Shown piece after piece: positions 28,131 through 60,301 of a stretch of 64,000 bases of DNA. Where the stretch lies: the NCBI GenBank assembly GCA_035573675.1, contig DATMAB010000027.1, positions 1-64,000 of the forward strand, written 5' to 3'. A program made the translations under genes and the position numbers. Numbering within the stretch: position 1 is the stretch's first letter; every line of letters begins with the position of its first letter. The DNA is from Terriglobales bacterium. Lineage in GTDB: Bacteria; Acidobacteriota; Terriglobia; Terriglobales; Acidobacteriaceae. The notes beneath the pieces are model-generated. The model was not told where the DNA came from. It saw only the letters and a program-made list of their open reading frames with translations, and made no database searches.

Positions 28131-28205
28131 TGGCTTTTGGCTTTTGGCTTTTGGCTTTTGGCTTTTGGCTTTTGGCTCTTGGCTCTTGGCTCTTGGCCCC
28201 TGGCC
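28131..28205. repeat. Heptanucleotide tandem repeat TTTTGGC
   Basis: About six exact TTTTGGC units are followed by three TCTTGGC units and a decayed CCCTGGCC end. It is directly followed by GGTACTCG-type repeats (28219-28257) and CGCTTATCG/CTAATCG repeats (28261-28290). All lie in the leader of the ARPP-1-like gene. The unit length of 7 would shift frame if it were translated. Confidence 0.9.
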
Positions 28206-28218
28206 TTCAGCGTGGACT

Positions 28219-28290
28219 GGGTACTCGGTACTCGGTACTCGCAACCCGGTACTCGCCATTCGCTTATCGCTAATCGCTTATCGCTTATTG
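28219..28290. repeat. GGTACTCG and CGCTTATCG repeats upstream of the ARPP-1-like gene
   Basis: GGGTACTCGGTACTCGGTAC and further GGTACTCGC units (28219-28257), then CGCTTATCGCTAATCGCTTA plus TCGCTTATTG (28261-28290). The first is the same family as at 13131, 32209, 54843 and 55245. The gene's ribosome binding site starts right after them. Confidence 0.75.
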
Positions 28291-28310
28291 CTGCTCCAAA
28301 GGAGCTACCC

Positions 28311-29459: not shown

Positions 29460-30000
29460 GTGGTGGGAGAGCGGGTCTTTAGGCCCGCTTTAGACGCAGC
29501 TTGGAAAGGGGCTTTGGCCCTGGCGGTCTCGTTTCGTAACAGGGCACGGTTTCAACCGTGCCGTTCGGGTCCGCGGGATGAGCGTGGGCTTTAGCCCCTG
29601 CGGCAATCTGTTCTGCACCCTCGCGCAGTTCCGTAGAGACGCAGCTTGCTGCGTCTCGGAGACGTTGCGAGTAACGTCTCTACAACGCATTTGGGCTTTC
29701 GGTGGGAGAGCCGGGCTCGGCAGGTCGGGCCTTCAGGTCGGACTCGCGCAGCGACCCCGTGCCAACGTCCGGCCTCACCAGGGCTTTAGCCCCGGCGCAT
29801 TCTTTGTATCAGGGCACGGTTTTAGCCGTGCCGCGCCCGTCCGCCGAAAACGGGGCTTTAGCCACGGGCGCCCAACCACCCCAGTCGCGAAGCGACGGAA
29901 ACTCGATAGCCCAGCACGTGAGTGCTGGGTGGAACGGCGGGAAAAACCCGAGTCCCGCAGGGACGGCACCACGGAACTTCCTCCGCCCGTCCAACGTAAC
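29460..30000. repeat. Gene-free palindrome-rich stretch
   Basis: About 540 bases without a credible gene. It holds many stem-loops: GGCACGGTTTCAACCGTGCC (29543-29562), GGGCTTTAGCCCC (29586-29598 and 29781-29793), GGCACGGTTTTAGCCGTGCC (29813-29832), CCCAGCACGTGAGTGCTGGG (29910-29929), and a GTAGAGACGTTGC element (29633-29683). Related GGCTTCAGCCC-type hairpins occur at about 25735-25760, 33830-33890 and 39795-39835. These look like REP-type intergenic palindromes. Confidence 0.75.
29633..29683. repeat. GTAGAGACGTTGC palindromic repeat, copy 2
   Basis: GTAGAGACGCAGCTTGCTGC then GTCTCGGAGACGTTGCGAGT and AACGTCTCTAC. Same two-hairpin layout as the copy at 13201-13270. Confidence 0.8.
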
Positions 30001-32116: not shown

Positions 32117-32208
32117 TAGAGGGATACCCGGGGGGAGGGGTGACTAGCGCGACCTTAACCGCCGAGTTAATCTAGGCGACGGGCTCGCAACCCTTGGATG
32201 GTTTGTCT

Positions 32209-32298
32209 GGGTACTGAGTACTGGGTACTGAGTACTGGGTACTGGGTACTCGCACCCTGCCTCCTGCTTTCTCCGTGTCTCCGTGCCTCCGTGGTGTC
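32209..32298. repeat. GGTACTG and CTCCGTG repeats before the M20 peptidase stop
   Basis: GGGTACTGAGTACTGGGTAC and further units (32209-32253), then TTTCTCCGTGTCTCCGTGCC plus TCCGTGG (about 32266-32293). The second type resembles the CAGAGATACAGAGG sequence in the coaE tail. They end right at the peptidase stop codon (32301). Confidence 0.7.
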
Positions 32299-38764: not shown

Positions 38765-38852
38765 CCACGGATTAACACGGATCAACACCGATAAAGCTTA
38801 GCCTTCTGTGAAACCGCTTTCTGATCCGTGGTCATCCGTGGAAATCCGTGGC
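38765..38852. repeat. CCACGGATT inverted repeat between prfA and prmC
   Basis: Left arm CCACGGATTAACACGGATCA plus ACACCGAT (38765-38792); right arm GATCCGTGGTCATCCGTGGA plus AATCCGTGG (38823-38851). The arms are complementary and enclose about 30 bases without an open frame. Related CGCGGAT units occur at 48261-48293, 59512-59537 (inside recG) and 60224-60255. Confidence 0.8.
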
Positions 38853-38857
38853 TGACA

Positions 38858-39697
38858 ATGCAGTTGCGGAACGCCCTCAATTCGGCAATCCAGCAGCTGG
38901 AAGCGGCAAACATAGGGTCGCCGCGCCTGAATGCGGAAGTGCTGCTCATGTTCGTGCTGGGCGCGAACCGCGCTCATCTGTACGCCTACCCCGAGCGCGA
39001 ACTTACCCCTGAGGAACTTGCGCGATACGACGAAGCGCTCGCCGAGCGAGCTCGCGGCAAGCCCTCGCAGTACATCACCGGACACCAGGAGTTCTGGGGC
39101 CTGGACTTCGTGGTGACGCCGGCGGTGCTGATTCCGCGGCCAGAGACGGAGCACGTGGTCGAAACCGTGCTCGAACTGGCGCGCGGCGTCGAGCGACCGC
39201 GGATTGTGGACGTGGGCACAGGGTCGGGCTGCATCGCACTGGCGCTGGCCAAGGAGCTGCCGCAGTCGAAGATTCATGCCTGTGACATCTCCTCCGAGGC
39301 GCTGGAAGTGGCACGCGCGAACGCTGCGCGTTTGGAGCTGGCCGGCCGCGTGTCGTTCCATCAGAGTGACCTGCTGGCCGCGTTGCCCGTTGAGCCCGCA
39401 TTCGACTTCGTGGTCTCTAATCCCCCCTATGTCGGGGAGAGCGAACCGGAGCAGGTGCAGCGCGAAGTGCGCGAGTTCGAGCCTAAGGTGGCGGTGTTCG
39501 CCGGGGAAAAAGGGCTGGAGGTCTACGAGCGGCTCATCCCACAGGTGCGCGCCGTGCTGAAGCCGGGGGGATGGTTGGTAGTCGAGATCGGTTACTCGAT
39601 GGAGAATGCCGTGCGTAAGTTGCTTGCGGGCTGGAGCGAGGTCCGTGTGACCAACGACCTGCAGGGGATTCCACGGGTAGTGGCGGCCCGCAAGTAG
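38858..39697 (+). CDS. prmC: Release factor glutamine N5-methyltransferase
   Basis: 279 residues from ATG 38858 (MQLRNALNSAIQQLEAANIG). Methylates the GGQ glutamine of RF1/RF2 using S-adenosylmethionine. SAM motif I is VDVGTGSGCIALALA and the substrate-binding motif is VSNPPYVGES, both diagnostic; LLMFVLGANRAHLYAYPE and QYITGHQEFWGLDF belong to the N-terminal domain. The open frame begins at 38828 but that part is the CCACGGATT repeat. Downstream of prfA. Confidence 0.95.
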   Translation: MQLRNALNSAIQQLEAANIGSPRLNAEVLLMFVLGANRAHLYAYPERELTPEELARYDEALAERARGKPSQYITGHQEFWGLDFVVTPAVLIPRPETEHVVETVLELARGVERPRIVDVGTGSGCIALALAKELPQSKIHACDISSEALEVARANAARLELAGRVSFHQSDLLAALPVEPAFDFVVSNPPYVGESEPEQVQREVREFEPKVAVFAGEKGLEVYERLIPQVRAVLKPGGWLVVEIGYSMENAVRKLLAGWSEVRVTNDLQGIPRVVAARK

Positions 39698-57977: not shown

Positions 57978-60212
57978 ATGCTCGAACTGCACACGCCGGT
58001 GCAATACGTGCGGGGTGTAGGTCCGAAGGTGGCCGCGCTGCTGGCGGAAAAGGGCATCACCACCGTAGAAGACCTGCTCTACTACCTTCCCTTTCGCTAC
58101 GAGGACCGGCTCAACCCCCGCGCCATCGCCCAGCTTCGCCCGGGAGAAATGGCCACGGTGATCGGCGAGGTGCGCACCTCCGGCCTATTTCGCACCCGCC
58201 GCATGCCCATCTTCCAGATGACTGTGGCCCAGGGACGCGACGCGCTGCAGTGCATCTGGTTCAACGCCGCCTACCTGCGCGGCAAGTTCCAGCCCGGCAA
58301 GCGCGTGGCGCTGTACGGGAAGGTGGAAGCCGCCTTCCAGGGCCGCGGCCGCCTGCAACTGGTGCAGCCGCAGTTCGAGGTGCTGGACTCCGAAGGCGAA
58401 GATCCCGCCGCGGCTTCGCTGGAGGTGGGACGCATCGTGCCCATTTACGAGTCGGCAGCGCGTGGCAAGCTGACCTCGCGCTGGTTCCGCCGGGTCATTC
58501 ATGGAGTGCTGGAGAATCTGGCCGCGGAAATCCCCGACGGCGTCCCGCCCGCCATGCGGGATGCCCTGAAGCTCCTGCCGCGCCGCGAAGCCTTCTGGCG
58601 CGTCCACTGGCCCGAGCCCGCGACGCCCTTCGAAGACCTTCAGGCCCAGCGCACGCCTGCGCATCGCCGACTGATCTTCGAAGAACTGTTCTTTCTCGAA
58701 GTCGGGCTGGAGCTGAAGCGTCGCCGCTTGCGCCAGCAGCCGGGCATCAGCTTCCGGCTCGACGACAAAGTGCGCCAGGCGATCAAGCGCATTCTGCCCT
58801 TTCACCCCACTGCGGCGCAGAAGCGGGTGTTGGGCGAGATCGCGCGCGACATGGAGCGCCCCTCGCCCATGCGCCGGCTGTTGCAAGGGGATGTGGGCTC
58901 GGGCAAGACCATCGTGGCGCTGGAGGCGGCGATCATCGCCATCGAGAACGGGTGCCAGGCCGCCCTCATGGCGCCCACCGAGATCCTGGCTACGCAGCAT
59001 TACCTGGCGGCGCGCACCCTGCTGGAAAAGGCAGGCTATCGCATCCTGCTGCTGACCGGTTCGCTCGATCCCGCCGAGAAGCGCTCCGCCCGCCGTCATG
59101 TGGCCCGCGGCGACGCCCAACTGGTCATCGGCACCCACGCGCTCATCGAGGAGAAGGTGGAGTTCGCGCGCCTGGGACTGGTCATCGTAGACGAGCAGCA
59201 CCGGTTCGGCGTGCTTCAGCGCTTTCGCCTGATGAAGAAGCCCGCCGCGGCAGGCGCCCGCCAGGAACCCGAGCCCGATGTGCTGGTGATGACCGCCACG
59301 CCCATCCCCCGCACGCTGGCATTGACGCTGTATGGCGATCTCGACGTCAGCCTGCTCGACGAAATGCCGCCGGGCCGCTCGCCCATCGTCACCCGGCGCG
59401 TCTCCGACGAGCGCTCCGTCGAGGTGTTCGCCTTCGTGCGCCGCCAGGTGCACATGGGGCACCAGGCCTACATCGTTTATCCAGTCATCGAGGAAAAAGA
59501 AGAACAACCAGCCGCGGATCAGCGCGGATCAGCGCGCATGGAACCTACGGAACCGGAGGCGACGTCGAAACTTTTCCCTGAGCCCGCGCCGCGCCTCACG
59601 CTCAAAGCCGCGGTGAAGATGTATGACGAGCTGCGCAAGAAGATCCTCCCCGACCTGCGCATTGGCCTGCTGCACGGCCGCTTGCCGGCTGAAGAGAAAG
59701 AAGAGGTGATGCGCCGCTTCGCCGCGGGCGAGATTGACGTACTGGTTTCCACCACGGTCATCGAGGTCGGCGTCGATGTCTCGAACGCCACGGTGATGGT
59801 GGTGGAGCACGCCGAACGCTTCGGACTGGCCCAGCTTCACCAGTTGCGGGGGCGCATCGGCCGTGGCGCCGCCAAAAGTTATTGCATTCTCATGACCGGC
59901 GGCAAGATCACCGAAGATGCCGAGCAGCGCCTGAATGCCATGGTGCGCACCACCAACGGCTTCGAGATCGCCGAGCTGGATCTGGAGCTGCGCGGCCCGG
60001 GCGAATTCTTCGGCACCCGCCAGGCCGGCATGCCTGACTTCCGCGTGGCCAACCTGCTGCGCGACAAGGAGCTTCTCGAAGTCGCCCGCCGCGAAGCCGC
60101 CCGCGTCGCCGCCGGACCCGCTGCCGACCTTTCCGCGCAGGACATCAGCCGCGTCTTCGCTCACCTGAAGGCCCACTGGCAGAGGCGATACGGATTGGTG
60201 GAAGTGGGATAG
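57978..60212 (+). CDS. recG: ATP-dependent DNA helicase RecG, with an in-frame repeat insert
   Basis: 744 residues from ATG 57978 (MLELHTPVQYVRGVGPKVAA). Branch-migrating helicase in recombination and fork rescue. The N-terminal wedge (PFRYEDRLNPRAIAQLRPGE) and helicase motifs LLQGDVGSGKTIVALEAA, VDEQHRFGVLQR, TATPIPRTLAL, FAAGEIDVLVSTTVIEVGVD and QLRGRIGRG are all seen. Between VYPVIEEKEE-like (YPVIEEKEE, about 505) and LKAAVKMYDEL there is an insert of about 30 residues (EQPAADQRGSARMEPTEPEA and on) encoded in part by a CGCGGAT repeat at 59512-59537. The rest is normal, so the protein is probably active. Confidence 0.95.
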   Translation: MLELHTPVQYVRGVGPKVAALLAEKGITTVEDLLYYLPFRYEDRLNPRAIAQLRPGEMATVIGEVRTSGLFRTRRMPIFQMTVAQGRDALQCIWFNAAYLRGKFQPGKRVALYGKVEAAFQGRGRLQLVQPQFEVLDSEGEDPAAASLEVGRIVPIYESAARGKLTSRWFRRVIHGVLENLAAEIPDGVPPAMRDALKLLPRREAFWRVHWPEPATPFEDLQAQRTPAHRRLIFEELFFLEVGLELKRRRLRQQPGISFRLDDKVRQAIKRILPFHPTAAQKRVLGEIARDMERPSPMRRLLQGDVGSGKTIVALEAAIIAIENGCQAALMAPTEILATQHYLAARTLLEKAGYRILLLTGSLDPAEKRSARRHVARGDAQLVIGTHALIEEKVEFARLGLVIVDEQHRFGVLQRFRLMKKPAAAGARQEPEPDVLVMTATPIPRTLALTLYGDLDVSLLDEMPPGRSPIVTRRVSDERSVEVFAFVRRQVHMGHQAYIVYPVIEEKEEQPAADQRGSARMEPTEPEATSKLFPEPAPRLTLKAAVKMYDELRKKILPDLRIGLLHGRLPAEEKEEVMRRFAAGEIDVLVSTTVIEVGVDVSNATVMVVEHAERFGLAQLHQLRGRIGRGAAKSYCILMTGGKITEDAEQRLNAMVRTTNGFEIAELDLELRGPGEFFGTRQAGMPDFRVANLLRDKELLEVARREAARVAAGPAADLSAQDISRVFAHLKAHWQRRYGLVEVG
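59512..59537. repeat. CGCGGAT repeat inside the recG coding region
   Basis: CCGCGGATCAGCGCGGATCA plus GCGCGC. It encodes AADQRGSARM in frame. Same family as the intergenic copies at 48261 and 60224. Confidence 0.7.
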
Positions 60213-60223
60213 AGGCAAAGGCG

Positions 60224-60255
60224 CGACGCAGATTCACGCGGATAACGCGCATTGG
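60224..60255. repeat. CGCGGAT repeat between recG and selA
   Basis: CGACGCAGATTCACGCGGAT plus AACGCGCATTGG. A degenerate copy of the family found at 38765, 48261 and 59512. Confidence 0.5.
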
Positions 60256-60301
60256 ACTCCGCCCTTTAGATTGAACGTTCCCGTGATGAGATAATCCTAA
60301 C

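Follow-up and report, generated by a model that had tools for sequence, protein, structure and literature searches.

The recG Gene and Its Extended Loop

The window, by which we mean the whole 64,000-nucleotide stretch of DNA analyzed here, is part of contig C27 of the 3.16-Mb, 28-contig draft genome (G000) of a Terriglobales bacterium from the family Acidobacteriaceae. On its forward strand, positions 57978..60209 hold recG, an intact open reading frame closed by a stop codon at 60210-60212 and encoding an ATP-dependent DNA helicase RecG of 744 amino acids. The protein scores 915 bits against NCBIfam NF008168 (cut-off 718), harbors wedge, DEAD, and helicase C-terminal domains, and finds its nearest named relatives among proteins labelled Acidobacteria (such as those of Acidobacteriales and Acidobacteriaceae MAGs, Paracidobacterium acidisoli, and Acidipila rosea); a search of Rfam gave no match at recG. 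Since 93% of its amino acids agree with those of the RecG of a congener (G001) although 149 of the 410 comparable fourfold sites differ, the protein is under purifying selection. That recG might be a decaying pseudogene, or its loop an assembly error, is a thought invited by the draft state of the genomes and by nothing else, and is extremely improbable given the intact frame, the presence of the wedge and helicase domains, the strong purifying selection, and the comparable loop of G001.

Between VYPVI and LKAAV, this RecG carries a loop of 37 residues (EEKEEQPAADQRGSARMEPTEPEATSKLFPEPAPRLT; 59490..59600, forward strand), in agreement with the preliminary description, which had pointed to an extra segment of about 30 residues. 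In an AlphaFold2 model of the protein (30-sequence alignment A1; mean pLDDT 83), residues 508-539 have a pLDDT below 50 and lie between the strand at 496-501 and the helix at 545-556; the VIA-align table returned the RecG/Mfd fold and nothing further. When the protein is aligned with Thermotoga maritima RecG (1gm5), the alignment stops at query residue 508 and restarts at 537, and with 9wm0 it stops at 509 and restarts at 543, which leaves 28-33 query residues without a match. We read the segment as a strand–helix loop of the second helicase domain, predicted to be disordered and expandable.

The RecG C-terminus was found in 374 of 398 genomes of the family, and the loop was read in 178 genomes, 155 from the window's family and 23 from outside, part of this sample having been chosen in order of likeness to the window, which leaves large lower-scoring genera under-represented; G036, G050, and G210 (L050, L085, and L117) were left out of the loop set. 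Within the family, 93 of the 155 loops have at most 12 residues (exactly 7 in 81) and 62 have at least 19, so the long insert is far from common to all relatives. Outside the family, the loop has at most 7 residues in 22 genomes and 21 in the remaining one, although for several of these genomes the parser errs by as much as about 4 residues (2-3 given where 6-7 is right). Inserts of at least 15 residues, tallied across 98 distinct RecG genes with the trimmed N-terminal end excluded, concentrate at the site of the 37-residue loop (61), followed by residue 422 (15), 138 (8), 85 (4), and 184 (1). The second variable loop, around residue 422, averages a pLDDT of 59 in the model of the window's protein, which is low, if not below 50.

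A Dispersed 10-nt Repeat in Frame within the Loop

The first part of the loop was proposed to be a CGCGGAT repeat, and a dispersed 10-nt repeat, CGCGGATNNN, does occupy positions 59513..59542 (forward strand) with three units, translated in frame as part of AADQRGSARM. The array consists of CGCGGATCAG CGCGGATCAG CGCGCATGGA, that is, two exact units followed by one that carries a single core change, and since three 10-nt units amount to 30 nt, or ten codons, the frame of recG is kept. In the bacterium's own genome, a pair of units, CGCGGATNNNCGCGGAT, gives 41 exact hits and its reversed pattern none, and 87 against one when up to one mismatch is allowed; because 41 exact matches stand against zero, the array in recG is not due to chance. 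Within the 64-kb window alone, enrichment is not significant (CGCGGATNNNCGCG, one mismatch allowed: 13 matches against 9.2 expected), and the dispersal is therefore visible only at the scale of the whole genome. The segment of about 30 residues cannot be taken as repeat throughout, the repeat accounting for about 10 of its residues; the rest of the loop (59543..59600, forward strand) is non-repeat, with an end (LFPEPxPRLT) common to G001.

The 41 matches form 28 arrays of two or three units, six of which make up three inverted pairs 166-258 bases apart. TTTCGC precedes 8 of 22 arrays and is missing from the copy in recG. CTAC, which reads GTAG on the opposite strand, stands 2 bases beyond the recG array; a tag of this kind is missing within 10 bases of 18 of the 22 arrays. 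By itself, the recG array folds no better than shuffled sequences (z -0.65), and the best inverted pair involving it reaches 73% complementarity, its arms being separated by 72 nt. When codon usage was applied to the 22 arrays fetched out of the 28, the one in recG alone was called coding, and two of them (L010 and L015) scored near zero, neither clearly coding nor clearly noncoding. This partly upholds the claim that the repeat otherwise occurs only in gaps, which stands for the arrays checked in this genome and fails for two other genomes, where the same family lies in frame in another RecG loop (L229 and L252, see below). A text search of the literature with the repeat strings retrieved no paper.

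Local slippage, or a coincidence of codons, could in principle have produced a CGCGGAT-like array unrelated to the dispersed family, as the unit is short, the genome is rich in G+C, and the window alone displays no enrichment. We consider this origin very unlikely: over its three units, the recG copy agrees at 25 of 30 bases with the closest of the other three-unit arrays in the genome, none of the 98 RecG genes matched a reversed pattern, and two further genomes have this family in another RecG loop.

Other arrays lie in the window. One (L023; 48261..48290, forward strand) was not called coding. Another, diverged but still of three units (60227-60256), starts 14 bases past the recG stop codon, inside a stretch of 54 bases (60213..60266, forward strand) that is absent from G001 and has TAG on either side (60210-60212 and 60267-60269); in G001, the gap after recG runs straight into sequence resembling what follows the array in the window. 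Arrays are therefore gained or lost between close species, as judged from this one species pair.

A few further features were observed in passing. At L020:1501-1785, a tRNA-Pro gene (1542-1618) sits between two inverted CGCGGAT arrays. Elsewhere in the window, CACGGATNNA units are followed by inverted ATCCGTGGNN units in a hairpin-like pair (38766-38860), an Acido-Lenti-1 RNA scores above its gathering score on the minus strand (29883-29929), and seven-base tandem repeats (TGGCTTT, ACTCGGT, TCGCTTA, and CTGGGTA) occupy 28131-28292 and 32207-32250.

Age of the Insertion

In a FastTree phylogeny of RecG from which the loop was excluded, G000 pairs with G001 as its sister (support 1.0), and G019 joins the two (0.97). 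The loop of G001 contains two CGGAT units at period 10 (GACGGATCCGCACGGATGCG) and shares GSARM with that of the window; on these grounds, the two arrays are probably homologous, a reading based on the protein alignment, and the 10-nt array would predate the split of the two species. G019, the nearest relative of the pair, has a loop of 27 residues (EGRDDEQPALDFALTAEKADKKKTAAS) devoid of any CGCGGAT array, because of which the repeat probably entered a loop that was already lengthened. Long loops also occur in relatives that lack all the tested repeats. As to the relative ages raised in the preliminary description, the repeat is younger than the gene, and a species-specific origin is unlikely in view of the period-10 pair of G001.

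Unrelated Dispersed Repeats in the Same Loop

The loops of several relatives turned out to hold dispersed repeats of other families. That of G001 also contains a GTAG-ended palindrome (GTAGCGCCGGCGTCTCGCCGGCG), whose GTAG tag stands beside a palindromic core (GTAGCGCCGGCGTCTCGCCGGC; folding z -3.38), and the same family is found in the opposite orientation in the loop of G002, motifs related to it occurring in G104, of the same genus. The loop of G033 holds a palindrome of another family (GGGCACGACTTCAGTCGTGCC, of the GGGCACGACTT family), which recurs in the opposite orientation and with two mismatches in the loop of L233, and the loop of G034 a CTTCGACT...CAGGATGAC repeat. All are dispersed in their genomes: GCCGGCGNGACGCCGGCGCTAC, for the GTAG-ended family, has 45 matches in G002, 15 in G104, and 2 in G001 (one being the recG copy), GGGCACGACTTNAGTCGTGCCG has 78 in G033, and the CTTCGACT repeat has 45 copies in G034, the genomes for these counts having been picked partly for their repeat-like recG loops. 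The reversed-pattern controls for the CGCGGATNNN pair, GCCGGCGNGACGCCGGCGCTAC, GGGCACGACTTNAGTCGTGCCG, and the CTTCGACT repeat gave 0 in all 14 genomes per search. The recG copies themselves are among the genome matches (G000 C27:59513, G001 C6:8610, G002 C3:264658, G033 C111:7722, and G034 C11:194775).

A further palindrome, CCCCATCGCGCC...GGGCGCG.TGGGG, lies in the loops of G138, G180, and G223 and, diverged, in that of G087. A BLAST search with the 66-base insert gave weaker matches elsewhere in 5 of 6 genomes of the G138/G180/G223 genus (24-52 bases long, 81-96% identical, with E values reaching 0.007), and in G138 both the pattern, searched on both strands, and BLAST found the recG copy only. 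G162 falls in the clade of this palindrome and has a loop without it, possibly as a result of loss or of misplacement in the tree.

Across 98 distinct RecG genes (215 kb, most of the genes being from the window's family), which were made distinct by the identity of one stretch and thus still include close relatives and form no random sample, a recognised copy was found in 8 and reversed patterns in none. Six of these copies occupy the same loop as in the window (L032, L033, L037, L058, L064, and L233). The other two belong to the CGCGGAT family and lie in frame in the loop at about residue 422 (L229, near 2819, exact; L252, one mismatch), together with CGATCACC-like tandem repeats; this supersedes a scan of 45 recG genes in which the CGGAT pair had seemed confined to G000 and G001. 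In our judgement, which is drawn from tree position and loop likeness and not from a model, about seven entries of five families into the loop have taken place. The sequences indicate that this loop recurrently receives dispersed repeats in the window's family of Acidobacteriota.

Tolerated Site or Preferred Target

To what extent repeats enter other genes was judged by codon usage for 106 copies outside recG (21 from G034, 21 from G002, 43 from G033, several of these in tandem clusters, and 21 arrays from G000): 4 lie in real genes and 102 do not. The in-frame copies are in leuS of G034 (L319), in alaS of G033 (L356), and, in G002, in recN (L348, its reading frame truncated by the end of the locus) and a recA/ImuA-like gene (L347), both of the latter scoring below the curated NCBIfam cut-offs. 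A 53-aa reading frame in L357, called coding by the codon-usage classifier, was counted as spurious. If 4% of copies fall in genes, with assumed round figures of about 3,000 genes and about 40 copies per genome and hits taken as even among genes, well under one recG hit would roughly be expected in 98 genomes; eight recG genes with a copy were observed, a comparison that is as rough as its premises, the genomes being related and not randomly drawn.

The recG loop might be an insertion hot spot, its sequence or replication context attracting repeats instead of merely permitting them, as several families and two different loops of the gene are hit and an array lies 14 bases after its stop codon that the congener G001 lacks. 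This seems quite unlikely to us, since the families share no evident target sequence when compared by eye and occur in both orientations, and since, by codon usage, 102 of the 106 copies outside recG do not lie in real genes. We favor the view that repeats recurrently enter the loop because, most likely, in-frame insertions there do little harm, when those elsewhere in RecG would mostly be purged; tolerance, then, more than targeting, may lie behind the recurrence. The suggestion that the repeat can enter a gene and be tolerated in a loop agrees with what we find for the window, where an in-frame copy lies in a loop of predicted disorder and RecG is under purifying selection.

As to how the copies arrived, mobilisation of short repeats is the presumed route, and the GTAG-ended and GGGCACGACTT families may have moved by way of tyrosine (Y1) transposases. 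Matches to the transposase family PF01797 were found in 12 of the 14 genomes searched (none in G034 and G162), for a total of 52, and 30 of the loci were fetched. In L404 and L396, GGGCACGACTT copies, some with 1-2 mismatches, bracket the PF01797 match, and in L392 others are placed between a pair of matches. In the 30 fetched loci, neither the GTAG-ended pattern nor the CTTCGACT repeat had any copy, and CGCGGATNNN copies occurred within 1.5 kb of a match, on one side only, in two (L391 and L403). Against this route, G034 has no PF01797 match and yet contains its 45 copies of the CTTCGACT repeat.

A Clamp-Binding-Like Motif in the Long Loops

The long loops are variable except near their start, where 39 of the 62 carry Q..[LMIF].[FL] (30 as QPELDF and 3 as QQEMEF), many of these 39 genomes belonging to one clade. 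There, the loop start reads [DE]QPELDF or a variant (DDQPELDF, e.g., in L064 and L058). In the part of RecG that precedes the loop, the loose Q..[LMIF].[FL] pattern turns up 15 times over 16,625 residues. The codons of the loop motif differ synonymously, for instance between G033 and G243. At what we take to be the usual clamp-motif position of DnaE, 11 of 12 genomes have QHGLF and G033 has QAGLF. Escherichia coli RecB uses QVEMEF to bind the sliding clamp, the consensus of such motifs being given as Q-aliphatic-x-[L/M]-x-[F/L] in the available text of PMC13254535; position 2 of the RecG motif is P, Q, or S, not an aliphatic residue, and the fit to the consensus is hence not strict. The RecG of the window lacks the motif: it reads EQPAADQ where G019 has EQPALDF, and the CGCGGATNNN array lies at that place.

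On the basis of these sequences, one may imagine that the RecG loop of this family is an evolving docking arm with a clamp-binding-like motif, repeatedly remodelled or broken by mobile repeats, and that the insertion in the window may have destroyed a putative contact between RecG and the sliding clamp, although we deem this scenario rather unlikely. It is also conceivable that the loop is a functional binding module in which repeats are kept or recruited for a changed RecG activity, for example a mutator effect such as the one suggested for repeats in repair genes by Di Nocera and colleagues (PMC3733652, main text). The short motif conserved in 39 of 62 long loops, with its resemblance to that of RecB, would fit this idea, as would the fact that the repeat-bearing genes identified here are all information-processing genes, like many in that work. 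We nonetheless judge it unlikely: unrelated repeats encode unrelated peptides, from which no common function follows, and the motif is absent in the window's genus (QPAADQ).

Comparison with Known Repeats and Significance

Taken as a whole, the best explanation, and in our opinion a highly probable one, is that of a disordered, expandable loop into which three units of the dispersed 10-nt repeat CGCGGATNNN would have been inserted in frame in the window's genus, and which repeats have entered recurrently in the family, presumably by tolerance.

The occurrence of repeats inside repair and tRNA-ligase genes is already published: the main text of Di Nocera et al. (2013, PMC3733652) describes GTAG/CGTC REPs inside genes, many of them for replication or repair and some for tRNA ligases, reports different REPs at about the same recB site in two Xanthomonas species, and does not mention recG. 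The repeats considered here resemble them as short dispersed sequences lying in frame within genes, many of which are repair genes and some tRNA ligases, and the loop repeat of G001 and G002, with its GTAG tag, its palindromic core, and its 45 copies in G002 (2 in G001), is like the REPs in these respects. The repeat of the window differs in being a 10-nt tandem array with no stem beyond chance, and, in contrast to what those reports describe, a single RecG loop holds several unrelated families here. The same article names an Acidobacteria group among the RAYT/TIRYT tyrosine transposases; like the repeats of such transposases, the GGGCACGACTT family flanks PF01797 matches (2 of 30 loci), and unlike them CTTCGACT does so in 0 of 30 and CGCGGATNNN stands on one side in 2 of 30.

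Other parallels are looser. Rickettsia palindromic elements, described in the available text of PMC10969869 as palindromes of about 150 bp of which several families lie in frame in unrelated genes, share the in-frame insertion with the repeat of the window, which is however 30 bp long, tandem, not palindromic, and found in Acidobacteriota and not in Rickettsia. The small mobile sequences of enterobacteria, whose open frames are fused into genes according to the text at hand of Delihas (2007, PMC2759123), are likewise small repeats read within genes, but with units of 103-168 bp. A paper on Wolbachia recG (PMC4224334), considered as a precedent, was set aside, its available text being concerned with selection and not with repeats. 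A pattern of one loop with many repeats was not found in the literature searched, and the new part of our observations is the recurrent use of one RecG loop by unrelated repeats.

That one loop of a repair helicase is filled by unrelated repeats in separate lineages makes it possible to separate a tolerated site from an active repeat. The association of intragenic repeats with repair genes, known from the literature, now extends to RecG and to the acidobacterial group studied here, and the long loops point to a clamp-binding-like motif in RecG that lends itself to experimental testing.
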